In this document: positions 10,101 to 57,479 of the stretch, in pieces
Position numbering within the stretch: position 1 is the first letter of the stretch
Layout: each line of letters begins with the position of its first letter
Source: Liolophura sinensis
Lineage: Eukaryota; Mollusca; Polyplacophora; Chitonida; Chitonidae
Direction: 5' to 3'
NCBI RefSeq assembly: GCF_032854445.1
Contig: NC_088300.1
Coordinates: 21,311,608-21,375,607 of the forward strand
DNA: 64,000 nt
Made by a program: the position numbers and the translations under genes
The notes under the pieces: generated by a model
Told to the model about the DNA's origin: nothing
What the model saw: the letters and a program-made list of their open reading frames with translations, nothing else
Database searches by the model: none

Positions 10101-13100
10101 TTGCAGGCTTGGAAACAGTTGTTAATATTCTTAGTTTACTTGATGATGGTGAGATCTTTTGTGTGCTTGTGTAAAAGTTGCACATGTATGTTTGGTTTTC
10201 TGTGTTAGCCAGAATCAAGATGTTCGTTGCATGCCTTGTATGAAAGGGAAATAATTCATCACATATCTAATTTCTTGCTAGTTTGTAAAAATTACAATAG
10301 TTACTATTGATATTTTAGACGTTAACAGGGTAGTCCATTCAGTACTATGCACACTATATCCTACAGGACCTTGCATTATCCACTGCACGGTCCATTTTTA
10401 CCTAAATAATACTCATTACCTGGGAATAAAACCAGTATCAAGTAATGAATGTGTATCTAAAATGTGTCTCTCTGTCAAATTTCAGAAACATGTAAAAACA
10501 CCATCGTACCTCTGGTATGCAAATTTTGCCAGCAGTCTGTTTTGTCTCAGGACTCTACTCTGCCTGTAGTGGCCAAGCAGTTTGGGAAACTCTGTCATGG
10601 GCTGTCAAGTACGTTTCAAGTTCTGGTACTAGCTAATTAATACATCCCATTTTTCATATATTCAGCTAAATATCTAATCATTTGTGTTAAATTAACAATG
10701 TGATACATAAAGGTCTGGTGACAGTTTAATGTCTTTCATGATTGGGATATCTTGGGCTGTAAATCATGTTGACTTTCTTGTACATGTAGATTCTATTTTA
10801 GTCCAGTGCAGTTTGCCTGTTAGTATTCTTAATGATGGACTTTTTAAGGGGCCTTATGTTGTAGTTGTAATGTCTGTCACCTAGGAGTGTGTGTTTGTGT
10901 TCACAGTAAATCTGATGGATGACCAGAAGCTGTGGTTCATGGATTACTACAGACAGTTGTGTAGAGTGGGATTATCAGACAAGGCAAAGTCAAAGGAGGC
11001 AGAACCTAGCTCTCCTTCTATAAAGGTAGGCAGTCAAGAAGAGCGAGGTATGGAAGTACCCTCAGGAAAGCGTTAGCTACAACATTAGTACAGGTGTTCA
11101 GAATCATCCCAGTTTCTTTGTTCCATGCATATGCTGTCATCAAGTAGGTCATTAGTTTCCTGCGTATTGAAGCATCCCAGATTTGTTTCTAAGATTTATT
11201 TGGGTATAAATAAAGAGGCGGTTAATAAGTAGAGGAGATAGCTGTGTATATTAATTGGGACATTGTGTCATCAAGACTTAATACACATTTTGTTTCATGA
11301 TGTTTGAAGGTTAATTTGATGGGGATGGATATGTTTGATGAGGAAGATAAAACCACAGAGTGTCGACGGCATGCGGCATTTAACTTCCCAGTGAGTATAT
11401 GTCCACTGTTATTTTGTTCCCGCTGTAATAACATTGATTTGTACATTGTCACACTTCCATTACAATTTCTTCTTTTTTTCATTGGCTGAAGTAAAATACT
11501 GAATGTGAAAAGCTCCATTGCTGATGTATTTATATGTATGTTTTTCTCATCTTTTTGCTATTTTACATCATTCCAACTTAAAGTGACATTGTCTTTTCCA
11601 GGCCTTAGTAATGTTTGCAGGTGCCAAGTCTTTCAAATCAGAGCTCTACTTGACATTCTCCCAGTTGTGTACTGACCCCAACCTGTCGGTGAGGAAAACT
11701 GTGGCTTCTGGCCTCCACGAGGTGAATTCTCTGTCTTATTCTGTCCTGTCAGTGTAGCTCTAGAATATATTTCGTGGTGACGCTTTTGGATGTCTTTGTG
11801 ATTTCCTTCAATTTTGATACCTGAGTACCTAATCGCAATTTAAGTATTGTTTTAGTTTAATGACATTATCTTTGTGTTGGCCACATGCCTAGGGAAACTT
11901 GGTTACGAAGTAAGTCAAGAAGTGAGTTGAAAATTTCTTCATTGGGTACAAAGTAACACAAAGGGTTAAACTTGTTTTTGTTGTTTGTGAATGATGCCTG
12001 TTTGTTGATATATTATAAATGTATTTGTCCAGCTTTGAATTGAAGATTCATTTATATCATGGATAGTAATTTGTGCAATGCATTGTGCTCTCAGGTGGCT
12101 GGGATTCTTGGTGTGAATGTGAGTGTTTTACAGCCAGACCTGATGAGACTACTAAAAGACGAATCTGCTGAGGTGAGGACAATGTTACATCTGACAAATG
12201 TTATATGAGTGGAAGGCAATTGGTCTCCAGCAAGACAACACAATAAAACTCTGTCAATCATTTATTTCCCTGAGGGGGCCTCCATGTTTCAGTTCGTTAG
12301 CATGCTAGCACAGCGTAATGACCCAGGAGACCCTCACCAATGCAGTCGCTGTGAGGTCAAGTCCATCTCATGCTGGCTTCCTCTCTGGCCATACGTGGGA
12401 AGGTCTACCAGCAACCTGCTGATGGTTGTGGGTTTCCCCCAAGCTATGACCAGTTTCCTCCCACCATAATGCTGGCCGCCGTTGTACAAGTGAAATATTC
12501 TTGAGTAAGGCGTAAAATACCAATTAAATAAATAAATATTTCCCTGAGAATAATGACAGTGATGAAAAATGTAGATCTGGATGTCATGTAAGTACTCAAC
12601 TGTTTGGAATTTTGAAAGATTTCTGTTACTTTAGTATCACACAAAAGTTGTTTTCCACACTCAAGCAGCAGAGACCCACACACACGTGACACTTACGATT
12701 TTCCAAAGTTAAAGGGTCAGTGAACCATTTGATTGGTTACACACTTAAGGTGAAATGCTGACTGGTTCTTCTCAGATTAATTCAATGGACATTTTGTGAG
12801 TGATGAGAGTTTATTTTTGTGTAACACTGCCTACTGTAAACCTTCAAACTTTTCAACAACTAAAGCATTTTTTCAGTGAAACTTATGAATACATTTATTA
12901 TGAAAACAACAATAAAAATGATTTTTTGTCACTGAAGATGCAAGCCTGATAAAGCTGTGCAGATTATTTGTCTACATTCCATAGTTCTCTTAGGATGTTT
13001 TCAAGTATTTGGTTGCAGAGGTGATTGAAAAGGTTGAAGAATTAGGGTAGTAATATTGGCCGTTTCATGTATATAAGCATGTCTTTTCTCCTGTCCATGC

Positions 13101-16100
13101 AGGTCTTGAAAGGTGTTGTAGCTCATCTACCACAGACTTTAGAACTCCTTGCAAGGGCTGGAGGACCCACCATAACAGAATCAAAGGTGACTCTTTAAGA
13201 AGGGTGTCAAAGTTGTTTTTCAGGATTGAAAAGCTTTCAAAAATTATGGACTTGGATGTATCATGATTTGTGGATATCTCTTAGGTTCATATTATACCAG
13301 TGATGCAGGCATGTGTAAAACCTGCCACATACTCTGTCAGAACTTAAATGTGAAAAAAAAAAGAATAATAAGAAGAAAGCTCTTGCTGTGACTGTTTATT
13401 CTTTATAGTTTGTACAAATTCTGTTAGTGTTACAATATGCTAGAATTTCTTTTCGTTTGTTTCTTTTCAGATGAATCATCTTGCTGATATCATTCCCGCA
13501 CTCTTGGCAGCAGAGAAAGTCATTTTTTCCTCCAATAACTGGAGACTTCAGGAAGAGTTGATGACTAATTTGTCCTGTCTTCCAAAGTGTTTTACAAGTG
13601 ATGCTATATTTTCTAGAATCATTCCAATGGTCTACAAGAATGTTCAGAAAGCGGTGAGTTCAGTATTTTTTTTTTTGTTTTTTTTTTAAACTTACTGATG
13701 GTAATAACATAGAGTAAAATCTTATTAGCAGAAACCTTATGTGATGTCACTGATCCCATTGTGGCCAGGAAATGAAATATTCATATTCATTTTACTAGGT
13801 TGAACAAATGGTAAAAAAAAAAAAATCCAACTACTTTCCTGGACAGGTTTTAATGACCTTTCACCTGACACGTGTACATACTTCATTTTAGAGTGGTTTT
13901 GCCTTTAAGTGAACTAAAATGTTATTAGATATGATGTCCAACAATTTGACAACATATAGACCTACTGACAGAGCAACTGGCAACGTTGTTTGTTGCAGCC
14001 AAAAAATTCCCTTTGTGGAAGTTTCCTTATGCAACAGTGACAAGAAACATTTACTGAAATAAAGCATGATGAGCATCATTTTATTACTATCACTTTATTA
14101 ATTTGTGATGAAAACCATATTGCCATAAAGCCACATCAGCATTCCAGGGTCATGCAAAAAATGGTCCCAGGCGAGATTTGTGCCAAAATTTGTGACATTT
14201 GTCTTGTCTTAACAGTATATTTCAGCTTTCTTTGTACAGTGAATCAACAGTACTTTTCAGTTAGAGATGTCTTTCTTAAGATAAATTTTAATAAGTGTTG
14301 GAATAAAAGGAAATTGCTTCATTGTTCATGGCTGAGGAGTTATGAGTTTGAATGTTGTTAATTACATTCTGGTTTGTTTCAGAGAGCACTTCCTGTTCGA
14401 AGAGCAGCTGGCAGAACATTACTTATACTTTCTAGGAATATTAAAAGATTAGAACAGAGGGAAGAATGTTACACAAATATAATAGAAGGTAAGTCTACAT
14501 CTACATGTTTTGAAAAAAGATAATCTTTATTTTTAAATACAAGAGAATTACAGTAGTTACATGTATGTAAATATACTTTAATGTGGTGTACACGTGTGAG
14601 ATCCTCATCACAAACAAGGTAAACATGATCAAATTCCAAGTCCTCTAAATCTGTCAGATGTTTTAGGTGAATTAAAATGGATTCAGCCACATACAGAAAA
14701 CAGGAAACAGTTAATTCCAGAATTAGAATATGTGCAGAGAATTAAAAATCAGAGAAATATGATTGACCTAAAAAAGACATAAAAATTAAACTCAGGCTTG
14801 TTTTTTTTAACAGTAAATGACCAAAATAGTTAAAGGCAAAGAAAACACTAATATGTAGTATTACTCTTACACATTTTCGATGGAATGCATTCACCAAATA
14901 GAACTTGAAATGCACTATTTCAGTCCAAAAATATGAATGTGATGTCATTGATACCCTCTGTGCCCCAAAAGACCACTGTAGAATCTGTTGTTTTGAAAAC
15001 AAAATAAATTGAACATTTTTTCTGGGCAGTGTTTAATGATCTTTCATCGATCTTCATTTTAGTGTTCCCTTTGCCTTTAAATTTGGCCAGGTTGAGCAGT
15101 GTATGTCAAGGAAATTGTAGGGTAAAAACTGAATTCTGAAGTTCAGGCTACATTTTACCCAGCATAAGCACTTTTTTTTTTGTTATTACTCAGAATGTGA
15201 GTACTGTAATTCTTCAACCTTTTCGCATGTTTCACGTGCAAAGTCTTTATTCAAGCATATTCTGAAGGCATTATTAAGTGCAGATTGGTAAAATCATATT
15301 TTTGTGAAGCCCTGAAAATGGCCAATCCAACCAGTGTAGTTTTGTCTCCAAAATCAGATTATAAACCTGCATGAGTTTGGATATTTGGCGTTAATAAATT
15401 ACTCTGCAAGTTGCTTTTTCACATGCGAAAAGGTTGAGGAATTATGGTACCACAAAGTTTAGTGGTGTATTGCTACACTTTCATGTAAAACCAGCTTCGA
15501 TTACTTGTATGAGCCTGCAAATATTGATTGTATTGTAATCAGTTCTGATTTGGACACCATAAATATTGTAATCAGTTCTGATTTTGACACCACGAATATT
15601 CTAATCAGTTCTGATTTGGACACCATGAATATTGTAATCAGTTCAGATTTGGACACCATGAATATTGTAATCATTTCTATTATGGACGCCATAAATAAAC
15701 TGAGCTTTCTATTACAGATTTCTGTCACAGTTCCAGCTGTTACCAGAGGGGCTTATTCATCGACTTGTGTAAAGTTGTGATTGAAATCTACTCAAAACAG
15801 TTTTTCAAAGAACATTTTTATGAGGCTGTGTTAGAGTTGTCTGTGGACCCTGTACCAAATATACGACTCAAACTCTGTTCAATACTGCCTCAGTTGAAGA
15901 AAGTTGTGAAGGTGCCGAGTGACCGAGCATTATTGCAACAGTTAGAAACATGTGTGCGGAAACTCCTGATTAACGAGAAAGACAAAGATGTCAATGCTTG
16001 TGTGAAACAGGTAAATTCTGCATCATAAGGTGTTTTTTGGTTTTTCTGTTTATTTAGTTTGCTGCTTGGCCTATGGGGAATGGTGCATTGGTGTGTATAG

Positions 16101-19100
16101 TTATGATATAGATATTTCATTTAAATTTCTGTTTTTAAGTCTCAGTATCATTGTAAAAGCTGTTAAAGAAGCCAACATTCTTGTGACTTGCTGCTAAGCT
16201 TGTGGCAATGCAAGCAGGATGGAGCGGTAATGGGGAAGTAACTCACCTATAAACTTTCTGGATGGTGTTTCCTTGTGGAACTTATCTCCCTTAATCATTT
16301 GTTATGGTGCATATAAATCTGATGTAAAAACTACTAATGTTATCATGTTTTCCTGTAGGCTGTAGAAGAGTTGGATCGGATACATGTACAAATGGAAACT
16401 GTAAGTAACAAGCAACATTTCAGAAACAAAGTTATTTTTTAATAGCAAATATTGTCCAGAAGTGGTTTTGTAAGAGCTTTGTCATCTTCAAGTCTTCTCT
16501 TTTATACATGTACTTTGTATCCCATAAAACTTCATTGATTATTCCTCTACATGTAGGGTGGCCAGGATAAAGCCAGGATATTTCATTCTATGTATATTAT
16601 TGCCAACCTATACTAAGTAGTAAATGGAATCCCCTTTATATTTAAAGTGGATGATATCATGCATGTGAAATCCATTACCATTATGTTAACATAAATTAAT
16701 GCAATGTCTATAACCAGTTGATTATATTCCAGATTAAAAAGCGAATGTTTTTTGAGGAAGACATTGCTGATGAGAGAAAAGAGGAAGAAGAGAAACGGTT
16801 GATAGAGCAGGTGCGTGATCGTCACAATGTGATCTTCATTGTTGTAAATGCTATCAGAAAATACGCTGTGAGTAGTATTCCACTGGGAAGAAAATGTCAC
16901 AAGAGCCATGGAATGTTGTGAGCAGGGGTAACAGGTTGTAAGAAGTCCTGTCACTTAATAGTGGATTTGCATGGTGGAGAGTTGCATCTTTTGGTTATTA
17001 TTCATTTTGACACTGTTCACATGTATTGCCAACATACAATGCCATGTACTCGCACAAGAGAGATGATTTATCTTCCTATATCGGTTCATAACCGATATGT
17101 ACACTAGTGTCAATACCCCCCCCCCCCTCCCCCCCCAAAGTTGTCTGACAAGATTTCTGCGGAAGTCATATATCACTTACTTTCTTATCTCTTTTATCTA
17201 ACCTGGTCATCAGCTAATGTGGCCAGTGGGTAAACTTGGCACCGTATCACTGTTGAAAATGCTAAAATATGTTGTACATGTCAAAGGAGTGATCTTATAG
17301 ACTTGTAATAGGTGATCTTTGTCAAGGCTGAGGAAGATTAATGTAAAAGAGACGTTCTTACATCTGGATTGTAGTACATCCTAGTTTATGCTGGAAGGGT
17401 TTTCAAAAAAGGGCAACTACTAAGCAAAGTTGTCCTTTCTGGTTGGGGCTGTGACAGTGTATACTGTAATATTTAACCCATTAATAGTGTGACATAAGTA
17501 TGTTTAATTCTGTTCCCTACTTTCGACAGAAACCTCTTGTAAAATCGTCTTTGTGAGAGAGAAAAATGTCACACATATAAGACCTAGACATAAAGAATGC
17601 CATTGATGTTATCTGCTTGAGAAGAACAACTGGGGTGCTGAGTGCAGTGGGACTGCTGACTCTGTACTGAGCCTGTCACTGATGTTGTTGTTTGATGATT
17701 CTCAGGAGGAAAGGGAACGGAAAGATGAGGAAGCCAAACCTAAAAGTGACAAGAAGAAAGATGCGTCTAAAAAAGACAACTGTAGCAGTAAAATCCCGTC
17801 TCCCAGGAGAGTCTCCACGGGTGAGTCACTGACTCCTTTTAGCGTTACATTCCCATGTTCTGTGGTTATTAGCTGGAATTGTTGAATTTCTATAAAGGCA
17901 ATGAAGACACAAGTACATGGATAGAGTACAAAGCAAAGACTCTCACAATAAAACTTGTGGTATGAAAGGATACATGGAATTGTAAAACAAAGAGTTTTAT
18001 CAGAAGTGGAAAAAGTTATGACAAAGGCATCACATAAAAAAACATTTTTGAGGCATATTTTGTACCTCATAATTACCCCTCTGTGCTATGAATATTTTTC
18101 ATCAGTAGTCAGAAATTTTCGAAAAATGTCTTCAATCATGAACTTACCAGCTTCGTGACATTCCAGCTCTTCTCCAAACAGTTTTTTTAACAGTTATCAC
18201 TTTTGATGTCATAAATACAGGCTATGTAATATGCTGATGGACCGCTAGGACCTTAAGAAAACAATACTTTTCACCCTGAGAAGGAAGCTGAGAAATGTTT
18301 GCTACCTTTATATGTCAGGACACATCCTGTCCTGAACTGCTTAGAAATAAAATAAAAAAACAAATGTTTCATGTATCATTTAAAGCATGAAACTCTGAAG
18401 CATTCAGAATGGCCATTTTGTTATGGTGTTCTGCATGGATCTGATCTCACTAATAGTGGAAAATAATTTATCTGTTTTATTATTACATGTATATATAAAC
18501 ACACATTTATGCCAAAATTCAACTTCACATATACATGGTGTTATTTTCAAAAGAGAATGATAGCTTAATTTTTTGTCCTACTTATACATGTTATCAAGAG
18601 GCTATTGTGCATATACAACAGTTCTTGATGTTATATCCACGCCACCATTTCTAGGCTTTCAGCTAAATTCTAATCCTAAAACTGGTAATTTTCCCTATAT
18701 TAAAGTCTTGTTAAAAATAAACGTGCCTTCTAAAAGCTAAAAATTTTAAGTATCTAATAAACAAAAATTCAACAAATTGAGAGTTCATTGAGAGCAGTAT
18801 GAAGGTTGTAAGCCTCATGCATCTATTAGAGTGTACCCTAATTCCTCAACCTTGTTAGATTTTGGAGAACTACATTGGTTGGATTGACCAGTTTAAGCGC
18901 TGCAGAAAAAGTATAATTTTATCAGTCACACAAAATATGTTTGAATAAACAAACATGCAAAAAAGTTGCAGAATTACAGTATTGTTTTTTATAACTTTAA
19001 AGGATTGATGCCATTGTTTTAGGGGGGAAGGCAACAGGCTCAAGTAGCAGAGAAAAGATCGGTTCAGCAGGGAGAGACTTGAAGAAAACCCCCAGTACCA

Positions 19101-22100
19101 CCAGTACTGTGACAGGGACAACAAGTAGCACAAGGAACAGTGAGTACACTCATGTCTTTCACATCAGTGGGTTAGATCCACACTGTACATCCATGAGCTG
19201 TAACAGATGATAAAATAAAACAAGGCCGGATTAATGCAGAGGTAGAATGTAACAGATACCAGAGTGAAGTCTTTCAGTTTTTTCGTTAGGTATACTTGAA
19301 ATATACATATGTTCTTCTCTTTGTACAAATGGATTAGTGTTTATGGATCTACATACATATACATGTCTATATGAAGCTGCGGATACTGGGTAGGTTTGGG
19401 TACATTTGGAAGGATTCGGTGTATCCCATGCTGCCATGAAAGAGTTTGTTTTGTATGATAAACTGATAACTATTCTGCACTCCACCAAAAAGTTGGAGAG
19501 AAAGCTGGTACACAAGGTATGAATGCCGTGAAAGAGTTTGTTTTGTATGATTAACTGATAACTATTCTGCACTCCACCAAAAAGTTGGAGAGAAAGCTGG
19601 TACACAAGGTATGAATGCCGTGAAAGAGTTTGTTTTGTATGATAAACTGATAACTATTCTGCACTCCACCAAAAAGGTTGGAGAGAAAGCTGGTACACAA
19701 GGTATGAATCCAGATCTTGGAGTTGGTCTTTAAGTACATGTTATTACATGCAAAAAGTCAGTGTGGCATTCATATTTTAATGAGGTTCATTGTGTAGATA
19801 AGCTTAATACCAGCACTAATACCACACAATGACTAAGGAAGAAATGCATACTTGTAGTTATATTTCTTACTCAGATATATCATCGTATCCACTGGGATCC
19901 GTCTTCAATTAACAGTATCTGCTTGCTGTATTTATTATCCTTGGAGTGGTAAATAAATAAGCCGGACATAGGAAAAGTATTCAAGGGTTCAAATTGCTTC
20001 AGCTTGGTGCTTTTAGGAGTCTTTGTATTGCTTGGTCTTGTTAGAAACCATCTGATATGCACCATTACTAAATACTGAAAGCAGTACAGTGATGTTCAAA
20101 GTGGTTATGGTGACATGATGGACACTGCCTGCTCTTCAGACAATGGATCATTGCATTTAGACAGTTCTGAAAAGATACATTTAGTACATACGTGTATGTG
20201 ACTTAAGCCTGGTTGTCTTAAAGCCGGAAGGGCACTCAGAGTCCCACCACAATACTGTCTTATGTGGATACCTGATAACATAGTGGTCATAGCTTGCCAG
20301 AGATGAAAACCTTTCAGAGTGCTATACATGTTGTCAAGGAAACCGCCTCGTATAACAGGCCTCCATCATCAAGGTGACCACTGGTCACTCTTCTGGTAAA
20401 GAAATACAACAGTCCTGATCAACTCTTAGGTTTTTATGTCAAGGTGTCCACTGGTTTTGAATGCCTACATTTCCAGTTAACACCGTAGACATAAAGCTTG
20501 CGGCTGAAGTTCTGGAGTCTTCCTGTTTGTGTGGGAACAGAGTTCTACTCGGTGCAGTTTCTTGTCCTGTTTTTGTTCCTCCAGTTTCTGATAATCTCTA
20601 ATTGGTGGAAATGTTCAGACTACATCTTTATTAATATGATATTCAGAGATTCATATGACTTTTAAATTGGCTGTGTTCTGCTTTGGCCGTTTACAAATTT
20701 GAAATGATTTTCTCATTTATATTGATGTTTATGCATTTAGTTTAGTCACCAAGCTATGTACATGTACATATACATGCAAAACATATATAATAGTGGCTGT
20801 TTACTGGCTAGTATTCAGCATTATATGGTGATAAACAGCTAGTACCTTATGCTTAGCTGTCAATTCTTGATTGAAGACCAATATGTGACATACATGTAAG
20901 CTGTGCCATGCCTCATCCTGAAATTACATTTATTTATTGATGTGACTCGGTGGATCTGTATTTTTACATCTTGCTGAAATTTTGTAACATATAAAATCAA
21001 ATCATCAGAAGTGTAGATACCTCCTGTCATGTGTATACATGTAAATGTACCAGTAAGTCATATTAGTTGAGGCCAAAACAGTAGATGTGATGCTTTTTAG
21101 CACCCCTGTATTAAGTACAGGTGCTGCCTATGTCGTACTCTGGGCGTAGAGGTCCATTAACAGGGAGGGCAATGTTAAACAAAATGTTAGGGGTGGTATC
21201 TCAGAAAGTACTGCATGTATTGACCTGAAGTTTTACATGCATATAAACACAATGACACAAGGAGGTTTATATTAATTAGTCTAAATTATCAAATTCACGA
21301 TTTCAGCACTTTATGTACTTTGTGGAACTGAAGTTTTACATTCATATGCCTCCGACAGGCGACCTCTTTGGTAGCTACCAAATCTAAGTTAGATTGTATA
21401 GATGTTTTCAGGTTCATTTTCGTTTTTATACTGTTTTGAGAAGTCATCCAAAAGCATTGTCGTTAACACTCCAGAGGTGATGAATTGTGGGTCTGGTGTG
21501 TTATCAGGACTGTAACTGAAAGCTGTAGGAAACATTGCAGTTTAAAATTATTTGATTGGTATTACTTTTGTCAAAATAGTTAAATTTCAAATGTGTTTAG
21601 CCCCAATCTTCCCTCTCTCTCTTTCCAATAGATTTCTTTCAGCTCCCTATTTTCCAAAGCCCATCCCAGGCAATGACAGAAGGTACATATAAACCTTGAG
21701 TGAAAGCACTACTGTGTGGCCATTTTAAACTGTTGTGTGCTGTTGGGTTGGCTTTATACGCTTACAGGTGTGATTCCAAGACACATTTTTCTGTGGATTA
21801 TGTACATGTACTGATAATACTGAAAAGCAATACATTTTAAGGTGTTTTTTTGTTGCCACGCCACAATTACTCTACTGTTAAAATTTATGATTTATTTGAC
21901 TGTTGTTTAGCCCCATATGAAGGAATTTTTTCATTTACCTGGTAAAAAGTGGTGGCCAGTTTTGTGGGTTGAAAAAAAAATGTTATGCCTGAGGTAAACC
22001 ACCAACCTTTGGCAAAATACTGATAAACTTTCCTACGTGTGTGCTCACCATATCGGTGGAAGACAAGTGGACACTTCAGACGGTGCAAGTGTCGACTGCT

Positions 22101-25100
22101 TATGGTCACTACACCTCCTTGAACTGTGAGGGCAGGAGAGTTTATAAGTTTCTGTCTGTTTCTATCCTCACATCATGTGGCCTAGCAAATGATTTACTAT
22201 TAAGAAGAACATAATGTCTACATGTATACATTTTTGTGTGCAGCTTATGCACAGGCAGAGTAACTTGTCTTTGCTTAATAACTTTACATTGGTTTACAGT
22301 GTGAGGGTTGATGGTTTTGCTTGTGTAATAGTAAGTGTCATACTGGTTTGGCTGGAGTGGTGTGGCTTCCATATTTAATGGGTGTGTTAGTTGCCTTATA
22401 CTGAATACATTTAAAACTAAGTGAATCCCATAGGTAAACTCTACATTTATCTGAGTATAAAAATGTCAGGTTTGAGAGAAAGTTATCTTTTGTCTACATG
22501 CACATTCTTGTCTTGTCTATGAAGAAGATGGTCAGTCTTGATCTCATTTCAAGTCTGGCTGCAGTGAAAATATTTGTATCAGTTATAGATGTGCTGCATG
22601 GAACTCAAAACCGCTTACCATGGGACATGGGACTGGACAGTGTTATTAGAATCTGAGTTAAATCATGGTAGGCTGTGGGAGGGATACAGTATACATGTAT
22701 ATTGGTGCATTGTCTACATATGTATCATACTTGTGGTTTTGCCACCATTAAAATGTTAGTTGTGTGTAACCTGACTGACCATCAATAAAAGTGGCCCTAT
22801 TTTGTTTGGATTTTGATTGAATTTTTTTTTCTCCCTCAATGTTAATTTCATTAAATCTCTATGTTTTTCATTAGCTAGAAAAACTCCTTACCCGCCAAAC
22901 CTAGTTTTGTTTCTAATAAGGTTGTGTATCCCTGACAAACAATTTTTAATTGAATTTTTCTAATTAAATGAGAGATTTCAGATTTTGTAGACTTGGACAC
23001 ATGTATGCTTGTATGTACACTTCTTTCCAGTGTGCTCTCAGTCAGATTGTTACATTTAAACCATTGTTGGAGTTAATATAGATAACAACAACCATAATAC
23101 AGTCTATGGAATTGTTTTTGCATTCAGCACCCTATCACTTGATGACAGTGAACTTTACTGTTTTTGTGTTTATTTTGCCATTCCCAGGCTAAATCCCTCA
23201 GTAGGGCTATATTCTTATATTTTTAAGTTGAACATTTATGTATTATTTAACTTGTGGACAATGAATTTTGGGGTAACTGTGTTGTACCAATATCACACTG
23301 CCTTCTTCAAGAGAATCTACCTGTACATGTTGATGTTTATATTTACAAAAGAGCTAAAGCATCGGTCCCTGTCTGGTCCCATCAGTCCCGTGACCGGGAA
23401 CCCGCTAAGCCGAGGAGCCCGCTCCAACTCCTCCACAACTCTTCACACCTCCCACATTCCCCGCAGAGGTAAGACTGCATGTCTGCATGTCCAGCCTATA
23501 CCAAATACCACCACTAATGATTGAGATCTGCTCAAAAACGGTCTACAACCCTGTCAAAGTAACCCGTCTCTTTGGTAATGTGTTGAAGTGCATGCTTTTA
23601 TGGAAGGATTCCAAGACTCTGGAACATCGGACACCTGTGGTGTACTGCATGAATTAGATTGAATTTGAATGAATGATTAGATCATTTTTCACCCTCCACC
23701 CAAGCAGTCTCCACTATGTAATGTTAGAAAGTTTCAAATTGTCCTTCTCTTGAATGTAAATTTTTGCGTGATATTTCATGACCAAAGACTTTCAAGCACA
23801 GCTAACGCCATTCCTAGATAAATAGACCCGCTAACAGCAAATGTAGAATATAACACATCTTTAACAGGCAGAGCGATTTTAAAACGTATCCTGTGTTGTA
23901 TATGTATTTAGCCACAGTGGCATCACAGAACGGAAGCACATCCACAGCAAAAGTTAATCGAATTAATGCCACAAGCCCCGTGCCTTTCCTGCATGATCCA
24001 GATGGTAAGTTTGTTTCTTCCAATGTCCGCATGGCTGTCCAAAATTGCATGGGCAAGCAATCAGTGTGACATGCTCGTGACTCGATCTTCCTAAAGCTGC
24101 AGGCGACCATTCTGTTTACAGAAGATAACATTAGGAACGATGGCAGCATGGCCGGTGATGTGACAGTGGGGTGACTGGATGTTGCTTGTAAACACAAACA
24201 CATTTGTGTATGTTTGTGGTGCTGTGGCCTGCAGTGTGTACTCTTAGAGGTGAACAAGGTCTGTTAGGGCAGGAGCTTGATTCATCCTGTTTAGCCCACA
24301 GCTGTGACAAGAGTTAATGGAATCAGAACACTCAAGGACTTCACACTACTACTTCATCTAATATGTTTCACAGAGTTCCTTTCCGGCCACAGGGGTCTGT
24401 CAAGGTTGCTTCACCGAGGTATAGCACATCATAACATAGACATGACCTCCACTCCAAGTCTGGGAGAAGGATGGGAAAAAAATTGACATCACACTGAACT
24501 GAAAGCTGGTTCATGTGTATATGGGAATTCATTGATTTACCCGCCTCATCAAAACAGCTCCCCCCCCCCATTTCAATCTCACATACACATCTAAATGGTG
24601 GCTGGATAACAGCAATCTTATAGCCATCATCACAATTAGCAGGGATATCACTGATAAATGTCATTCATAAAACATACAAATGAAGTGCCAGCAACTTCTA
24701 CAGGAGTGTTTAATGCAAAATGTCGGTAACATCCAAATGTGGTTGATTTTATTTTTTATGGAGATATCAATTTAAAAGTGCATGTGCATGTAAAAATATA
24801 TCCTTCAAAACTAGGAAAGAGGCCAGCGGTCCTATCCAAACAGTGTGAGCTGAAGAACGACAATCCATCCAAAAAAGTATATTTTATGGAGGCAAATAAA
24901 AGTCATAAAATATACAAAGAACAGAACACCTTTCTAAGGTCAGTGGATCTGTCAGTCTTGCAAAAAGAGTGACTTATTCATTCGCGAAATTTTGCATCAA
25001 GTGAGTGTATATATTCTTTGCAAAAGAAAGATAATTTACACAGATTGTTTTAGAGTGTGTGACAACCTCTAAATTATGCATGGATTTTTCCTTTTGTTGA

Positions 25101-28100
25101 TTCATTTGGACCGATGTGCTTACATACCTGTTCAGACATGATGTATGACTGTCACTTGTACGGTCAGAACTATTGTTCTTGTTCTGTGTACTATAGTAGA
25201 GGGCATTCAAATGATAAAAGATCTATTTAACATCAAAGAAGCATGATATATGTGATGTGTTTGCTGTTGAAAGGGTAAGCTGGATAGATTCTGTCAAAGT
25301 CATATAAATTGATTGATTGGTCATTTTATGTAAACCAGATGGTCGGATAGCTTGTGTCAAGCTATGGATATTATTTTGAATTGATTGATAATATTCATCA
25401 AAGTGAAGAGCCCTATGGATAATAAACTGTAAAATACGTAACTAAATATATGGAACATACTTGTGTATGTAGATAGATGTACATAACAGATTAATGTGTT
25501 TGTGCATCAAAATCCTTAGTGCACAACCAACAATGTAATAAGTATCGATGACTGTGGCTAAGTGCCTAGAGCATGCTGTATATATGCACTTCTGATGAAG
25601 CTGTTGTCTCTATTTTAAACTCTCTCTTTTTCTTTCTCTGTCTCTTCAAAGAGCCCTGGCTTCCCATGCTGATGTCAGTTCCACAGGCTGACAGTAAAAT
25701 TCCTGTCCCCTATTCTCTCTCCTCTCCATACACAGGTTGGTCTATTGGACTGATCAAACAAAACCACTGCAAGGAGAATGTGCTGCAGACAATTAGACTC
25801 CCCTCTTCCTGTCTCTTCATATCTTGCTTGATGGATTCCCATCATGTTTGGTTTTATATTCTGAATGTTTCTTGTGTTGTTGTCATGTCAGCCAGCTAAT
25901 CAGTACTACTCAACTGTTCACCATGGAAGACTTCATTCACTTTTTGATATTGGAAGTAGTCATTGATGTTGTCAGTTGTGTGTTGTGATGGAATGCTGCT
26001 TTTGACATGTTTTAGTGTTGACAGTAAGATATTAAAAGAGAAATAACATTACCTTTTCTAACTCCTGTTTCACATCTTTTCTACTTCCTATTCCACACCA
26101 TTTAGCGAATGTGTCTGTGACAAACAAATTATTACAAACAATGGTTAGCTGCTTATCGGCTCAATGTCGGATTCAAGACTCGACAGTTGTTGCTGATGTA
26201 TGGTTTTATGTATTTAGATGTATTTGATTTAAGTGTAAAGGAAAAATGTGCAAATCCTGGAGATACATCCACACCTGACCAGACAAAAGATGCAGCCAAT
26301 GCTACTGAATATACCTGTAACTTTAATATACCTCACCCCGATAGCAGAGTTGGTATCTACTTCGGGGGCGGTAGATCCAGGGTCAATCCTGGGCTGAGTC
26401 ACACCTAGGACTTTAAAAGAGGAAGTTGTAGCTTCCTCGCTTGGCATTTAGCATTAAGGGGATAGTAGCAGTAGATAAAAGAGTGGTCAAAATCCGTACT
26501 GAAAATTTGTTAAGTACGACATTAAACCCCAAGCACTCACTCACTCACTCACTCTTCAGTGAATCATAACCCCTGCCCTCTAATGGTGGGCAGTGTCTTT
26601 ACAGCTCGTACATGTATAACACATTTAGCCTCGGATTCAAAACCAATGAAAATACATACATATGCATGTACATTTATTCCTTTTTTTTATTTGATTGGTG
26701 TTTTACGCCATACTACTTAATATTTCACTCATTCATTGGCGCCCAACATTATGGTGGGAGTAAACTGAAAAGAGCCTGCTCCTAAGTCATTGTGCTGCGC
26801 TAACACACTAACCACTAATCTCTCTCAGCTCTGAGTACCAGTGCTAAAATGTTTGACTTGTATGGTGGGAGTATACCAAACAGAGCCTGCTCCTAAGTCA
26901 TTGTGCTGCACTAACACGCTAACCACTAGGACATGGAGGCCCCAGAAAAGGGAATTAATCTCTCTCAGCTCTGAGTACCAGTGCTAAAATGTTTGACTTG
27001 TATGGTGGGAGTATACCAAACAGAGCCTGCTCCTAAGTCATTGTGCTGCGCTAACACACTAACCACTAGGACATGGAGGCCCCAGAAAAGGGAATTAATC
27101 TCTCTCAGCTCTGAGTACCAGTGCTAAAATGTTTGACTTGTATGGTGGGAGTATACCGAACAGAGCCTGCTCCTAAGTCATTGTGCTGCGCTAACACGCT
27201 AACCACTAGGACATGGAGGCCCCAGAAAAGGGAATTAATCTCTCTCAGCTCTGAGTACCAGTGCTAAAATGTTTGACTTGTATGGTGGGAGTATACTGAA
27301 CAGAGCCTGCTCCTAAGTCATTGTGCTGCGCTAACACACTAACCACTAGGACATGGAGGCCCCAGAAAAGGGAATTAATCTCTCTCAGCTCTGAGTACCA
27401 GTGCTAAAATGTTTGACTTGTATGGTGGGAGTATACCGAACAGAGCCTGCTCCTAAGTCATTGTGCTGCACTAACACACTAACCACTAGGACATGGAGGC
27501 CCCAGAAAAGGGAATTAATCTCTCTCAGCTCTGAATACCAGTGCTAAAATGTTTGACTTGTATGGTGGGAGTATACCGAACAGAGCCTGCTCCTAAGTCA
27601 TTGTGCTGCACTAACACACTAACCACTAGGACATGGAGGCCCCAGAAAAGGGAATTAATCTCTCTCAGCTCTGAGTACCAGTGCTAAAATGTTTGACTTG
27701 TATCTAACTTTCTAAATATCTAACTGAATTTCCATATGCAAGCAGCATCAGGCCATTTTAAAGGTATCAACTTGTTTTAAATGTGAATCGTAACAGTTTT
27801 GGTTCAGGTTTTCTCTGTGAACAATCCCAAATCTGAGATGATACGTAATTGTGAGATGATACGTAATTTAACTTTTATAATTCCTTAATTAGTGGTTGAC
27901 ATTGGTGTTTATGCTTAAGGTGAAAATATGTCAATATTATAGAACATTGTATGGTAAATGTTTATATTTGAAGACTGAGCCTGGTCATATTGAATGATTC
28001 CTTTTCAGTTTTTGGAGGTAGTGCTCCATTATATATAGAAATACATTATAGAAATATGTACAGTATCTCATCTATGCAACAAACCCACTTCAAATGTTTT

Positions 28101-30789
28101 TACCTTCAAAAAGTACTGGACAATAGTATTGGTTTCAGAAATATGTTGAACAGTGTGGGGATTTAATTATTTGGTTAGCCATTGATGAGTATATAAAGTG
28201 TACAAAATATCACAAAAAACATTGTTTAGATGAATACATGTATTTTTAAAGAGGCAAAGTCATCCACTCTTTGGTGAACATCATGTGTACTGTATGCACA
28301 GACATGCACGGTCTTCTAATACTAACAACACTCTCATAGATAGTTTTTACTTTTAACTTGCATGAAGATAAAACATTTTAAAATATGAAAGCTTTTATGT
28401 AAATGTGCACAATGTTCATTTAGATAAAACATCTTAAAATATGAAAGCTTTTATGTAAATGTGCACAGGGTTCATTTTAGGAATGAGTTTGGTTTCTTCT
28501 TTTGTATATAGTGAATTATTCAGGATTAAAGTAAGACAATTATTGGGATTTTGTACTTTTCCAATAAGTTTTTATTTGATGATATGATGTTCTCTCTTAA
28601 TAAATTACATGGTCAGAATACAAATAGTGATGGGATGAAGAAGTTAATCTGCCATTTTCCCTTGTCATTTGATTATGTTCCTAGCAAGTCCATGGATTAG
28701 CTTCCTCCAGGGTCATTGTCTGTGAATAGCTGTTGACCAGCCTTTAGTTATTTTCGCATTTACACACAGCTCAACTGTAATAAAATTTTAAATTGTTGAA
28801 TATATGTATATGTGCATGTGATGTAAGCATGGCTTCTTTGATTGTAGGTATATCCAAATCTCCAATGCAAAGTCTGCAGGTCGTTCTAATGCTGTTGTCA
28901 GCTCTGCATCCACTGCCAATAAGTAAGTAGCTTTGAGTAGGGGGAGCGGTGTGTATCTCAATGTGTACATATTGTATACATGATACACAGTATGACTTCA
29001 TATCATCCGACAGTCAACAGTTAGTGTGTTTCACATAAAGCTTAGCATTTTTCAAGTGATGCATTTTGCTTGATTCTGATTGATTCATCCGCCTTTTAGT
29101 GCCACTTTTTTGTTAAGATTTTTTGTGATTAATTTATTATCCAAAAGGTAATAAGTAAATAAGTAAATTTCTGTGGTCTTTATGTGCTTCTGAAAGTGCA
29201 TTTTTACGTACCAAACTTTCAGTGAAATACTGTAGTTAAGGACAGGAAAATTTACGATTTTTGAACAACTTACATAGTTCAGGCCTGAAAGTAGAATTTC
29301 ATGCGTCCAGTTTTGTTTAAATTCCACAAATGGATAAATATTGGATGCATCTAAACATGGTATCATTTTTGTTTCAGTTTGCCTATATCTACCTTACTTA
29401 ACCTGCTGGTATGTTTCTGTGTTTTTAGAAGGGGCCAGGCATATCATCTGGGAGCAGTGGCATACTAGCCGGCGAGGCTCTATTAACAGTGCCAGTTCTA
29501 CCAGCAGTGGTGAGTGTGATGACTTAGTCTCATGAAATTGGTTGCTTTTCTGCAATAGCAGTGGATTTGAAACTATGCCTAGTAGATTTAACCCAAGATA
29601 CCAAAACTTAAATATTCTTCTACACAAAACAAAATAATTTATGCTGGAGGCTCAATCCTGGCTGAATTTCTTCTACCACAACACAGAATCAATGGTCACC
29701 ATTTAAGAGCCTAATTTGGATTACAATTTTTACAGTTAAGATTAAAATCGCCTTGTTATTAGGCCCCTTGAATATTAGCATTTGCCTAATAAAGGCTCAT
29801 TTATTGGAAATAATTGTCTTTATTGCTTAAATTGCGCATTCTACAGCACTGGATATTTCATTGCCTTAGTCAACCTTTTTTTTCTTCATGTGTTGGGACT
29901 TCACTGTTTCAGACTCTTCTGCAGTTAGCCAGAAGAGCACAGCATCTAGCAGAAAAATGAGCACTGCTGCCAATGTTCCCTCTTCTTCCTCCACATCCAA
30001 GTAAGCAATATAATGTATACAGGAATGCTACTGAAATGACTGAAAATTTTGCCCAAGAAATTGCATTCATTTTGTAGCCTTGCCATAGATGTCACCCTAC
30101 CTTCGAAGCAAACATCAAAACACCTTTCTAAGATAAAAACAACCCTCAGAATCAGGCAAAATGTTCAACTTCATAATTTAATTGTATGAACGGATAAAAA
30201 TAAATTTGCTGGCTGGAACAGCTGTAGAGGTTTGTGGAAAGTACCAATTCAGTCTGTTCCTGACCATGCACTCAAAATTACCTAAATAAGGAATACATGC
30301 ACATGCAGAAAGATTGAGAAATTACAGCACACAGAAACACCAGCTCCAGTTCAAGCCAGGTCATGGATGAATTCCATGGATGGTAGCTCAAATAAAATTT
30401 AGATTAAAACCTTATTATGTATTCATTTTATGTGAGTGTGTCATTCATGGAATTTTAAGCTTTGGCATAGTACTACATGGTGAATTTGACATTTGTGTTT
30501 GACAAAGTTACTCATGATTAAGGGAGTTCCATTTATCTTGAAAACGTGTTTCATCACCATAAGTAATATATAATCACCTTTATTTGCCGTTAAAAACGTA
30601 TGGTACATTTTTGCATGAATTTTTAGGTCAAATAAAGTATGGAAAATTGAGTTTTTCTAGTTCTGCATGTGACACTCTTTGGTTTACCTTCATTTGGTGC
30701 TGAGAATGGATGGCAATCACAGAAATGGCCAGTTGACACTAACTTCCGCTCTTATCTTGTGTTCCAGGAGGAAGACCAGTGTTAAGTAG
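1024..30789 (+). CDS. PPP4R4: PPP4R4-like protein phosphatase 4 regulatory subunit 4 (29 exons in window, 5' end missing)
   Basis: Known of the family: PPP4R4 is a HEAT-repeat protein that binds the PP4 catalytic subunit, mainly in the cytoplasm. What is seen: the joined exons give one open frame of about 985 residues, or about 950 without the three weaker exons. Conserved blocks match PPP4R4 in order: SSGQEVQRISVINNLP, QLSQSVQARLACSRILGK, FGKLCHGLS, SVRKTVASGLHEV, NHLADIIPALLAAEK, LLQQLETCVRKLLINEKD. HEAT-type helices fill roughly the first 620 visible residues, a charged probable coiled coil follows, then a Ser/Thr-rich basic tail ending KRKTSVK. Exon 1 here begins inside a codon, so at least one coding exon lies upstream of the window. 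The vertebrate protein is about 870 residues, so this tail is longer. Identity is confident for exons 1-18 and 29; some tail exons are tentative. CpG is scarce throughout, as in methylated invertebrate gene bodies. Confidence 0.9.
1127..8105 (+). other. PPP4R4 intron of about 7 kb
   Basis: The last codon of the previous exon (KVR) joins directly to EVLHVAQ, as in the family, so no exon is missing here. The intron contains one full SINE-B on the minus strand (3416-3780), poly-C runs at about 6,774 and 7,575, and many ACATGTA-type words. I see nothing else in it. Confidence 0.75.
3416..3780 (-). mobile_element. SINE-B full-length copy with target-site duplication
   Basis: On the minus strand: tRNA-like head (box A gcacagttggtagagcgtcc, box B-like region atccaggatcaatcc), a body with gaggaagttgtaacttcctc, and a tail gacgttaaaccccaagcact with CACT repeats. 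A perfect 13-bp duplication TCTAAGGGATTGG flanks it (3,403-3,415 and 3,781-3,793). Confidence 0.93.
8106..8253 (+). CDS. PPP4R4: PPP4R4 exon 2
   Basis: Acceptor gttactgtag, donor gtcagc. Phase 0 in, phase 1 out. It encodes EVLHVAQAEMQLAASSAFLQ and continues to SVDSKDPG, a HEAT helix pair. Confidence 0.93.
8816..8889 (+). CDS. PPP4R4: PPP4R4 exon 3
   Basis: Acceptor tttatag, donor gtgagt. Phase 1 in, 0 out. It encodes DVANAWLETLLDVIDLLPKD; the NAWLETLL block is typical of PPP4R4. Confidence 0.93.
9300..9406 (+). CDS. PPP4R4: PPP4R4 exon 4
   Basis: Acceptor ctctgcag, donor gtgagt. Phase 0 in, 2 out. It encodes VAKGQLSQSVQARLACSRIL followed by GKISTKFEPF, a strongly conserved PPP4R4 block. Confidence 0.94.
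9588..9695 (+). CDS. PPP4R4: PPP4R4 exon 5
   Basis: Acceptor ttttcag, donor gtacgt. Phase 2 in, 2 out. It encodes KKEILPVVQSMCQDIDYEVR followed by GCMCRQLDPVARGL, a classic HEAT repeat with the D-x-x-x-x-V-R turn. Confidence 0.94.
10027..10148 (+). CDS. PPP4R4: PPP4R4 exon 6
   Basis: Acceptor tttatcag, donor gtgaga. Phase 2 in, 1 out. It encodes LPELVELTNDEESHVRIAGL followed by ETVVNILSLLDD, a HEAT repeat. Confidence 0.93.
10486..10608 (+). CDS. PPP4R4: PPP4R4 exon 7
   Basis: Acceptor aatttcag, donor gtacgt. Phase 1 in, 1 out. It encodes TIVPLVCKFCQQSVLSQDST and ends in FGKLCHGLS, a conserved block. Confidence 0.93.
10907..11025 (+). CDS. PPP4R4: PPP4R4 exon 8
   Basis: Acceptor gttcacag, donor gtaggc. 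Phase 1 in, 0 out. It encodes LMDDQKLWFMDYYRQLCRVG followed by a short polar linker, KAKSKEAEPSSPSIK. Confidence 0.9.
11310..11390 (+). CDS. PPP4R4: PPP4R4 exon 9
   Basis: The acceptor gtttgaag has a poor pyrimidine tract; the donor is gtgagt. Phase 0 in and out. It encodes DEEDKTTECRRHAAFNFP. The CRRHAAFNFP block matches the family's conserved N-C-A-x-N-F-P segment. Confidence 0.87.
11602..11721 (+). CDS. PPP4R4: PPP4R4 exon 10
   Basis: Acceptor cttttccag, donor gtgaat. Phase 0 in and out, 40 codons. It encodes ELYLTFSQLCTDPNLSVRKT followed by VASGLHE, a HEAT repeat. Confidence 0.93.
12095..12172 (+). CDS. PPP4R4: PPP4R4 exon 11
   Basis: Acceptor gctctcag, donor gtgagg. Phase 0 in and out, 26 codons. 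It encodes VAGILGVNVSVLQPDLMRLL followed by KDESAE. Confidence 0.92.
12275..12536 (+). mobile_element. SINE-A full-length copy with target-site duplication
   Basis: Head ggggcctccatgtttcag, box B region gtgaggtcaagtcc, body and AATAAATA tail. A perfect 12-bp direct repeat TATTTCCCTGAG flanks it (12,263-12,274 and 12,537-12,548), the mark of LINE-driven retroposition. Confidence 0.92.
12834..13047 (+). mobile_element. MITE copy 2 (diverged)
   Basis: TA on both sides. The left end CTGTAAACCTTCAAACTTTT and the right end AAAAGGTTGAAGAATTAGGG are imperfect inverted repeats of the same family. The interior is diverged. Confidence 0.6.
13103..13186 (+). CDS. PPP4R4: PPP4R4 exon 12
   Basis: Acceptor ccatgcag, donor gtgact. 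Phase 0 in and out, 28 codons. It encodes VLKGVVAHLPQTLELLARAG followed by GPTITESK. Confidence 0.92.
13471..13653 (+). CDS. PPP4R4: PPP4R4 exon 13
   Basis: Strong acceptor ttcttttcag, donor gtgagt. Phase 0 in and out, 61 codons. It encodes MNHLADIIPALLAAEKV and NWRLQEELMTNLSCLPKCF. The exon opens with an internal Met, not a start codon. Confidence 0.93.
14383..14488 (+). CDS. PPP4R4: PPP4R4 exon 14
   Basis: Acceptor ttgtttcag, donor gtaagt. Phase 0 in, 1 out. It encodes RALPVRRAAGRTLLILSRNI followed by KRLEQREECYTNIIE, a HEAT repeat. Confidence 0.93.
15204..15447 (+). mobile_element. MITE copy 3 (full, 244 bp)
   Basis: TA at 15,202-15,203 and 15,448-15,449. The inverted ends of about 27 bp are CTGTAATTCTTCAACCTTTT at left and, inverted at right, CCATAATTCCTCAACCTTTT. 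The TA target duplication points to mobilisation by a Tc1/mariner-type transposase (inference). Confidence 0.88.
15531..15695 (+). repeat. 33-bp minisatellite, 5 copies, at a PPP4R4 splice acceptor
   Basis: Five consecutive 33-bp units, each starting TATTGTAATCAGTTCTGATT or a close variant, at 15,531, 15,564, 15,597, 15,630 and 15,663. The last is the most diverged. The array ends 22 bases before exon 15. Because 33 is a multiple of three, frames stay open on both strands; this is not evidence of coding. Confidence 0.95.
15718..16010 (+). CDS. PPP4R4: PPP4R4 exon 15 (largest)
   Basis: Acceptor tctattacag, donor gtaaat. Phase 1 in, 0 out, 98 codons. It encodes CYQRGLFIDLCKVVIEIYSK, ELSVDPVPNIRLKLCSILPQ and LLQQLETCVRKLLINEKDKD, the most conserved part of the protein. 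A 33-bp minisatellite ends 22 bases upstream of it. Confidence 0.95.
16359..16400 (+). CDS. PPP4R4: PPP4R4 exon 16 (42 bp)
   Basis: Acceptor tttcctgtag, donor gtaagt. Phase 0 in and out. It encodes AVEELDRIHVQMET, matching the family's V-x-E-L-D-R-x-x-x-x-M segment. Confidence 0.9.
16733..16810 (+). CDS. PPP4R4: PPP4R4 exon 17
   Basis: Acceptor tatattccag, donor gtgcgt. Phase 0 in and out. It encodes KKRMFFEEDIADERKEEEEK followed by RLIEQ, a charged probable coiled coil at the same place as the coiled coil of vertebrate PPP4R4. Confidence 0.9.
17706..17820 (+). CDS. PPP4R4: PPP4R4 exon 18
   Basis: Acceptor gattctcag, donor gtgagt. Phase 0 in, 1 out. It encodes EERERKDEEAKPKSDKKKDA and ends KIPSPRRVSTG, a Lys-rich segment with SP and RRxS-type phosphorylation motifs. 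Confidence 0.85.
18836..18979 (-). mobile_element. MITE copy 4 (internally deleted, inverted)
   Basis: TA on both sides. Left end CCCTAATTCCTCAACCTT, right end AAGTTGCAGAATTACAG. The interior TGGTTGGATTGACCAG is the reverse complement of the interior of copies 1 and 3, so this copy is in the opposite orientation. It is about 100 bp shorter. Confidence 0.82.
19023..19139 (+). CDS. PPP4R4: PPP4R4 exon 19
   Basis: Acceptor attgttttag, donor gtgagt. Phase 1 in and out, 117 bp. It encodes GKATGSSREKIGSAGRDLKK and a Thr/Ser run, PSTTSTVTGTTSSTRN. Confidence 0.8.
19140..21631 (+). other. PPP4R4 intron with 92-bp triplication
   Basis: The intron holds the 92-bp tandem triplication at 19,436-19,709 and frequent ACATGTA words. 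No further exon is recognised. A short palindrome (CTGTATTAAGTACAG) lies near 21,106. Confidence 0.6.
19436..19709 (+). repeat. 92-bp tandem triplication
   Basis: Three nearly identical units of 92 bp (tgaaagagtttgttttgtat ... tggtacacaaggtatgaatg) in a PPP4R4 intron. The third has one extra G. Very low divergence means a recent expansion. Confidence 0.95.
21632..21682 (+). CDS. PPP4R4: PPP4R4 candidate exon 20 (51 bp)
   Basis: A long pyrimidine tract (tctctctctttccaatag) precedes it, and gtacat follows. Phase 1 in and out, 17 codons, encoding FFQLPIFQSPSQAMTE. Support is splice signals and phase only; I recall no homologous sequence. Confidence 0.6.
21950..22105 (-). mobile_element. SINE-D fragment, diverged
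   Basis: Contains cctgaggtaaaccaccaacc and ttggcaa, then caccatatcggtggaagaca, in the same order as the SINE-D core. It lies in a PPP4R4 intron. The ends are not clear. Confidence 0.5.
23352..23468 (+). CDS. PPP4R4: PPP4R4 exon 21
   Basis: The acceptor tttacaaaag is weak; the donor is gtaaga. Phase 1 in and out, 117 bp. It encodes LKHRSLSGPISPVTGNPLSR followed by GARSNSSTTLHTSHIPRRG, a typical disordered phospho-tail. A second acceptor at 23,359 would shift the frame (VPVWSHQSRDREPAKPRSP) and is less likely. Confidence 0.75.
23912..24004 (+). CDS. PPP4R4: PPP4R4 exon 22
   Basis: Acceptor tatgtatttag, donor gtaagt. Phase 1 in and out, 31 codons. It encodes TVASQNGSTSTAKVNRINAT followed by SPVPFLHDPD. 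Confidence 0.78.
24374..24418 (+). CDS. PPP4R4: PPP4R4 candidate exon 23 (45 bp)
   Basis: Acceptor atgtttcacag, donor gtatag. Phase 1 in and out, 15 codons, encoding EFLSGHRGLSRLLHR. Support is splice signals and phase only. Confidence 0.5.
25652..25735 (+). CDS. PPP4R4: PPP4R4 exon 24
   Basis: The acceptor tctcttcaaag follows a long CT tract. The donor gttggt is weak, and an alternative donor gtaaaa at 25,694 also preserves phase 1. It encodes PWLPMLMSVPQADSKIPVPY followed by SLSSPYT. Phase 1 in and out with either donor (84 or 42 bp). Confidence 0.6.
26218..26316 (+). CDS. PPP4R4: PPP4R4 candidate exon 25 (99 bp)
   Basis: Acceptor tatgtatttag, almost the same as that of exon 22; donor gtaact. 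Phase 1 in and out, 33 codons, encoding VFDLSVKEKCANPGDTSTPD followed by QTKDAANATEYT. The composition looks like coding sequence. A SINE starts about 20 bases after the donor. Confidence 0.55.
26337..26553 (+). mobile_element. SINE-B copy, internally deleted
   Basis: Head ccgatagcagagttggtatc, then aaaagaggaagttgtagctt. About 110 bases of the body are missing before the tail gacattaaaccccaagcact and (CACT)n. Confidence 0.87.
26681..26814 (-). mobile_element. SINE-A copy, minus orientation, source of satellite
   Basis: Reads on the minus strand from a head-like part (reverse of gcgctaacacactaacca) to the tail (reverse of ttatttgattggtgtttt). The body is shortened. Its head half is repeated in the adjoining 140-bp array. 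Confidence 0.8.
26749..27700 (-). repeat. 140-bp satellite made from a SINE-A head
   Basis: Six 140-bp units start at 26,861, 27,001, 27,141, 27,281, 27,421 and 27,561, after a shortened leader unit (26,749-26,860). On the minus strand each unit holds the SINE-A head (ggggcctccatgtcctagtg, gttagcgcagcacaatgact) plus about 55 bases of unrelated sequence (reverse of ctctgagtaccagtgctaaa). Units differ at only a few positions. Confidence 0.95.
28367..28478 (+). repeat. 56-bp tandem duplication
   Basis: Two copies of gataaaacattttaaaatat ... aaatgtgcacaatgttcatt, starting at 28,367 and 28,423, with about three differences. Confidence 0.9.
28848..28922 (+). CDS. PPP4R4: PPP4R4 exon 26 (75 bp)
   Basis: Acceptor ttgattgtag, donor gtaagt. 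Used in phase 1-1 it encodes ISKSPMQSLQVVLMLLSALH followed by PLPI, unusually hydrophobic for this tail. The other open frame is Ser-rich (SNAKSAGRSNAVVSSASTAN) but would lead to a stop in the next exon. Confidence 0.6.
29429..29509 (+). CDS. PPP4R4: PPP4R4 exon 27
   Basis: Acceptor ctgtgtttttag, donor gtgagt. Phase 1 in and out, 27 codons. It encodes GARHIIWEQWHTSRRGSINS followed by ASSTSSG, with an RRGS phosphorylation-type motif. Confidence 0.75.
29913..30000 (+). CDS. PPP4R4: PPP4R4 exon 28
   Basis: Acceptor cactgtttcag, donor gtaagc. Phase 1 in, 2 out. It encodes SSAVSQKSTASSRKMSTAAN followed by VPSSSSTSK. Confidence 0.82.
30768..30789 (+). CDS. PPP4R4: PPP4R4 last coding exon 29 and stop codon
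   Basis: Acceptor cttgtgttccag, phase 2 in. It encodes KRKTSVK and then TAG at 30,787-30,789. A short basic Lys/Arg C-terminus after a Ser-rich stretch is also how vertebrate PPP4R4 ends. The 3' UTR follows in the same exon. Confidence 0.85.
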
Positions 30790-45055: not shown

Positions 45056-45136
45056 GTAAGTGACAACATAAAAGCGGTAAAATAAGAACAATTGATATTT
45101 GCCAGTGTATATATGTATACGCTCATGTATGTACGG

Positions 45137-57478: not shown

Positions 57479-57479
57479 C

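Follow-up and report, generated by a model that had tools for sequence, protein, structure and literature searches.

The classic runs of symmetric exons are those of collagen and of shuffled extracellular domains. Symmetry as such is widespread, and a survey of human genes gives 42% of exons as symmetric in ordered and disordered protein alike after exclusion of collagens, mostly disordered proteins showing a modest preference for such exons (44% vs. 42%; PMC4838654). Eukaryotic intron phases occur at about 5:3:2 (PMC7259759). In nearly all animals, exons that are skipped show a strong enrichment of frame-preserving lengths; such exons tend to be short, to lie between long introns and to be bounded by poorly defined splice sites (PMC6142364). 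Additionally, a published reviewer comment places skipped exons mostly in disordered regions (PMC6335736). For the gene family considered below, PMC6770196 records that human PPP4R4, regulatory subunit 4 of PP4, ends with SNP at residue 873.

Here we describe the 3' part of a PPP4R4-like gene from the chiton Liolophura sinensis, contained in a window of 64,000 nucleotides (the whole stretch of DNA that was analysed). The HEAT-part exons (Table 1) join via consensus splice sites into a single open frame of 694 codons, the 5' exons of the gene lying upstream of the window. PR65-like HEAT repeats are present in the product, which gives a Pfam HEAT match (E = 2.4e-10) and whose PDB relatives are PR65 chains (best E = 6.5e-22); moreover, 312 of its 694 alignment columns (45%) are identical to a provisional human PPP4R4 sequence, which we take to be 873 residues long and to end in SNP, and the similarity to this sequence spans the entire HEAT part. 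Hence, judged by its HEAT repeats, its PR65 relatives and this identity, the gene is PPP4R4-like, and the name that the sequence-only reading had chosen is sound, with the caveat that the human comparator was provisional. A pattern search of GTDB and IMG/VR with one well-matched exon (97 aa) returned 71 and 14 matches, respectively, with 0 relatives among them. The 3' end is fixed by two exons, of which 29913-30000 is open in phase 1 as its sole phase; together with 30768-30789 it encodes ...SSSSTSKRKTSVK, then a stop. Between these ends the encoded tail resisted alignment with the provisional human tail: none of 17 open readings of 10 exons was significant after 17 tests, the lone one with a shuffle P <0.1 being 28848 in phase 1 (P = 0.023, SKSPMQSL with TKTPTQSL), and three models of the tail as a whole scored no better than shuffles (0.86, 0.66, 0.53). 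An Rfam search of 17500-31000 gave no match, and a tRNA search found none.

Table 1. The PPP4R4-like gene in the window and its nine proposed tail segments, with splice-site scores, the number of segments with an equal or higher splice-plus-coding score (expected from control, scaled to 12 kb, vs. observed) and the posterior in the chain calculation.
Feature	Position	Strand	Length (bp)	Phase	Acceptor; donor	Expected vs. observed	Chain posterior	Remarks
HEAT and coiled-coil part of PPP4R4, 18 exons	1024..17820	+		exit phase 1				
Last HEAT-part exon	17706..17820	+		0-1				encodes EERERKDEE...SSKIPSPRRVST
Tail exon 1, well supported	19023..19139	+	117	1-1	5.5; 7.8	0.00 vs. 2	0.82-0.99 (disorder-tolerant coding models), 0.01-0.46 (HEAT-only model)	
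Tail exon 2 as proposed, plausible	21632..21682	+	51	ambiguous		1.24 vs. 8	<=0.19	boundary ambiguous
Tail exon 3, plausible	23352..23468	+	117		1.3 (weak); 9.4	4.48 vs. 20	<=0.06	
Tail exon 4, well supported	23912..24004	+	93	1-1		0.15 vs. 4	0.03-0.53, shared with 23918	rival acceptor 23918, same frame
Tail exon 5 as proposed, without support	24374..24418	+	45		donor 2.5	11.1 vs. 25	0.00 in 12/12 settings	near background
Tail exon 6 as proposed, plausible only	25652..25735	+	84		donor 5.3	1.08 vs. 7	<=0.04	
Tail exon 7 as proposed, plausible	26218..26316	+	99		donor 4.3 (weak)	0.15 vs. 5	0.04-0.17	rival start 26234 (phase 2)
Tail exon 8, frame arguable	28848..28922	+			11.2; 6.9 (strong)		0.11-0.99 as 1-1	
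Tail exon 9, well supported	29429..29509	+	81	1-1	11.2; 10.0	expected 0.00	0.75-0.97	encodes RRGS
Penultimate exon	29913..30000	+		1-2				DSSAVSQKSTASSRKMSTAANVPSSSSTSK; read from sequence
Terminal coding exon	30768..30789	+						KRKTSVK then TAG; sequence read and translated

The sequence-only reading had filled the space between these ends with nine consecutive phase 1-1 exons. The coordinates and lengths of all nine (9/9) proved to be as described, and each segment is preceded by AG, followed by GT and open in phase 1; their lengths in multiples of three follow from phase 1-1 and are thus not an independent second fact. For comparison with non-coding DNA, we counted, separately for the nine phase pairs, all open segments of 40-150 bp flanked by AG and GT, merging overlapping ones into clusters, and used as control 78 kb made up of the HEAT-part introns and both strands of about 32000-63900, DNA that has minisatellites and might conceal exons. 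At cut-offs of 4/4, the tail span holds 11 phase 1-1 clusters vs. 2.63 expected (Poisson P about 1e-4), while the remaining eight phase pairs give 3-6 observed vs. 3.9-4.6 expected. The excess recurs at 3/3 (14 vs. 5.56, the next pair being 2-2 with 11 vs. 6.64) and at 5/5 (6 vs. 0.77, the next being 0-1 with 4 vs. 1.70), so that 1-1 is the leading phase pair at all cut-offs, with some other pairs mildly high outside 4/4. Given this excess over control, which we observe alongside an intact PPP4R4 frame, the 1-1 run probably has a real core. At eukaryotic intron-phase proportions of 5:3:2, four more phase-1 introns after the first would be met with P = 0.008 and nine with P = 2e-5, the value of 0.008 being the safer one.

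Nevertheless, nine exons are probably an over-count. In a hand-built model whose flanking introns are in phase 1, only 1-1 false exons slot singly into the intron, hence over-predicted single exons are symmetric by construction. Seven of the nine segments pass the 4/4 cut-offs, the failures being 23352 (acceptor 1.3) and 24374 (donor 2.5), and about a quarter of those that pass are expected to be false; at the loosest cut, which admits all nine, the tail has 19 clusters, and the control rate of 0.56-0.88 per kb corresponds to 7-11 per equal span. Five segments lie far above control, with an expectation of 0.15 or less (19023, 23912, 26218, 28848 and 29429). Best supported as 1-1 exons are 19023, 23912 and 29429, followed by 28848, whose splice sites are strong and whose frame is arguable; 21632, 23352, 25652 and 26218 are plausible as exons, and three of these face competing boundaries that use other phases. 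Thus, the claim of nine consecutive 1-1 exons stands as regards nine open 1-1 segments and an excess of their class, and falls short in that not all nine are confirmed as exons or in their phases; moreover, whether 19023, 23912, 28848 and 29429 are adjacent in a same-phase run depends on the uncertain exons in between. Our collective results suggest that the number of 1-1 tail exons is probably five to seven, not nine. Beyond the nine, we noted a further 1-1 segment at 21412-21495, whose splice sum (17.1) exceeds that of 7/9 of them.

Given the bias of the hand-built model, it might be argued that the run is mostly a modelling artefact, in which case the real 1-1 exons would number three or four, and other boundaries and phases would apply in the central part of the tail. 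Two sets of rival segments speak for this. The pair 21643-21682 (1-2) and 23386-23468 (2-1), which when joined encodes TPYFPKPIPGNDRSPVTGNPLSRG, beats 21632 and 23352 on splice sites (12.1 + 13.8 vs. 11.3 + 10.7), and in a phase-free chain calculation 24122-24170 (1-2) joined to 26234-26316 (2-1) is often favoured, with posteriors of 0.59-0.83 and 0.70-0.81 at penalty 16 with two disordered-composition models and of 0.14 and 0.24 with a HEAT-only model. The 0.56-0.88 1-1 clusters per kb that control DNA yields at the loosest cut point in the same direction. Against this stands the phase-pair count, in which the excess at 4/4 is confined to 1-1, the pairs that such rivals would use being observed 6 times (1-2) and 4 times (2-1) vs. 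3.86 expected for each. We regard a mostly artefactual run as doubtful, albeit deserving of some weight.

The chain calculation was run in 12 settings with both ends fixed in phase 1 and 29913-30000 as the end anchor. Of 16 known exons it found 10.3-14.4, and its false exons in 14.2 kb of known introns numbered 0.02-4.7; it also carries a bias towards 1-1 that is absent from the phase-pair count; its values are therefore rough, and a low value is no proof of absence. At penalty 16, the two disorder-allowing models assign 1-1 to 4.0 of the 5.6 and 3.4 of the 5.3 exons expected, and the HEAT-only model does so for 2.8 of 3.4. An initial version of the calculation was discarded, as its false-exon mass was 7.3-7.6 even at the highest penalty, and codon usage alone was rejected as an exon/intron discriminator, since in the mixed model the HEAT-part exons themselves score from -3.7 to 17.4 bits. 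The amino-acid composition used for disordered protein in the coding score was an assumed one. Codon scores of this mixed model speak against the 1-1 run in that they favour phase 2 for 23352 (2.0 vs. -3.4) and 24374 (4.1 vs. -4.3) and phase 0 for 29429 (6.6 vs. 2.0). We kept phase 1 for 29429 because the exon that follows it is open in phase 1 only. The poor score of 23352 is due to its acceptor and its codons; the segment has a GC content of 0.62 vs. 0.37 in its flanks, its peptide is Ser/Arg-rich, and it is probably coding in the phase-1 frame (LKHRSLSGPISPVTGNPLSRGARSNSS).

The last two tail segments are each open in a second frame, 28848-28922 in 2-2 and 29429-29509 in 0-0. The 1-1 reading of 28848 (ISKSPMQSLQVVLMLLSALHPLPI) is hydrophobic, unlike the Ser-rich tail, and its 2-2 reading is YIQISNAKSAGRSNAVVSSASTAN; a further acceptor at 28880 (score 4.6) lies inside the exon and would make it 1-2. 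It is conceivable, given these frames, that 28848-28922, read as 2-2 or as 1-2 from 28880, forms an alternative C-terminus that joins 30768 and bypasses 29429 and 29913, in which case the junction of 28922 with 30768 would give STANKRKTSVK. The exit phase 2 would match 30768, and the 2-2 frame (SNAKSAGRSNAVVSSASTAN) is nearer to the rest of the tail in make-up than the 1-1 reading. Such a C-terminus would, on the other hand, require either an upstream exon with exit phase 2 or use of the weaker 28880 acceptor (4.6), and codon scores, without clearly separating the frames, lean to 1-1 in 2/3 models, all of which makes this arrangement very improbable.

The sequence-only reading had contrasted the tail with mixed-phase HEAT exons. 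This holds in part: phases in the HEAT part do vary, but 9/17 internal exons there are symmetric and five consecutive ones are 0-0 (11310-13653), hence the tail is not alone in having same-phase runs. The two parts differ in their splice sites. In scores that are relative only, obtained with matrices combining assumed generic metazoan frequencies and the 18 HEAT-part exons (scored leave-one-out), splice-site sums span 8.3-21.2 for the nine segments and 12.2-24.0 for the HEAT-part exons, with medians of 11.6 vs. 15.4 (Mann-Whitney P = 0.008), and the weakest HEAT-part exon outscores 5/9 tail segments; the four best tail exons (13.2, 13.3, 18.2 and 21.2) are not clearly weaker than the HEAT part. 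Moreover, exon length is 84 bp for the nine vs. 107.5 bp for the HEAT part, and introns measure 767 bp vs. 348 bp.

These traits bear on the function that had been suggested for the tail, namely that it is an array of cassettes whose combinatorial splicing would vary phosphorylation or docking sites. Weaker sites, shorter exons and longer introns than in the HEAT part are traits of skipped exons, and motifs that we read as kinase-like lie within single exons, RSLSGP in 23352 and RRGS in 29429 (a third, RRVS, is encoded by 17706), so that skipping of these two exons would matter if it occurred. The tail traits are thus compatible with skipping, albeit confounded by false exons, which look weak-sited too. 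The notion that any of the nine could be left out without harm fails for 28848: the final base of 26218 is T and the first two of 29429 are AA, therefore omission of 28848 between them creates TAA. Phase 1-1 excludes a frameshift and does not guarantee an open junction; single skips avoid a junction stop for 8/9 exons, and 448/512 exon subsets do so, the TAA arising in the other 64/512, so that not all combinations are open. Frame-neutrality is necessary for a cassette and weak evidence for one; the human survey, moreover, describes symmetric exons as common in ordered and disordered protein alike (PMC4838654). A cassette array of this kind seems unlikely on the features of the sequence. Less credible still, to the point of being highly improbable, is a multi-cassette array in which independent frame-neutral exons would toggle kinase- or 14-3-3-like sites, with 26218 and 28848 linked by the forbidden-junction stop. 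Among the matches listed in a literature search on PPP4R4/PP4R4 splicing and isoforms, no title concerned splicing of the tail.

We favour, with a probability of about 0.58, the reading that the 3' part of PPP4R4 encodes a Ser/Thr-rich, probably disordered tail spread over short 1-1 exons that arose from evolutionary bookkeeping. A disordered tail of this composition would tolerate gain or loss of short peptide segments. Within a phase-1 intron, a single insertion, loss or duplication would keep the protein intact for 1-1 exons only, and since only frame-neutral exons could be changed singly, 1-1 exons would accumulate. Ordinary skipping of one or two tail exons is plausible in such a gene. 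In proposing this we infer the gain and loss history, its evolutionary cause, the disorder of the tail and any pattern of skipping or splicing. A mostly frame-neutral set of short tail exons is a fairly common layout and is no proof of mix-and-match splicing.

Exon duplication as the source of the tail finds no clear support: among 55 exon pairs none survives correction, the best being 25652 with 17706 (corrected P about 0.26), which share SKIPxP. This peptide, which stands in a basic Ser/Pro setting in 17706-17820 and recurs in 25652-25735, resembles the SxIP motif carried by proteins that bind EB1 at microtubule ends. Compared with the rest of the window at E 0.01, the nine exon bodies had no match, the 3' flank of 26218 alone giving one. 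A repeat about 370 bp long is dispersed over both strands, its pieces being 80-94% identical (26336-26553, 3417-3785, 43970-44334 and 61182-61535, with shorter pieces near 45136, 45606, 53317 and 54150); its copy at 26336 is shortened and begins about 20 bp past the proposed end of the 26218 exon. Two tail introns hold tandem arrays, one of a 92-bp unit in three copies (19432-19709, 97% matches) and one of a 140-bp unit in 6.3 copies (26816-27703, 98% matches), and six units of the latter contain a 36-bp open 1-1 pseudo-exon, which illustrates how false symmetric exons can originate. Downstream of the gene, minisatellite arrays with, e.g., 39-bp and 34-bp units, some with long repetitive open frames, total some 5-6 kb (37880-38928, 41594-42737, 54926-55915, 57061-58244, 59688-60099 and 62334-63140).

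Were the tail what it was first taken for, PP4 would gain a splicing-controlled regulatory subunit, and the locus would offer an easy test case for the growth of a disordered tail via frame-neutral exons. The main lesson, as we see it, is that long runs of symmetric exons in hand-built models need non-coding controls, as the model itself selects for symmetry. Regarding the described systems, the chiton tail differs from the runs of collagen and of shuffled domains in being a low-complexity stretch without a significant repeated unit. With human PPP4R4 the gene shares a PR65-related HEAT array followed by a charged stretch and a Ser-rich C-terminal tail with a short basic end peptide, although its tail is not alignable to the provisional human one above shuffles. 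With frame-preserving exon skipping in animals (PMC6142364), it has in common lengths of 3n, short exons and long introns. Finally, it would resemble the successive symmetric exons of human genes, which the survey defines as at least three adjacent ones of the same phase (PMC4838654), in that a putative same-phase run extends over a seemingly disordered stretch.
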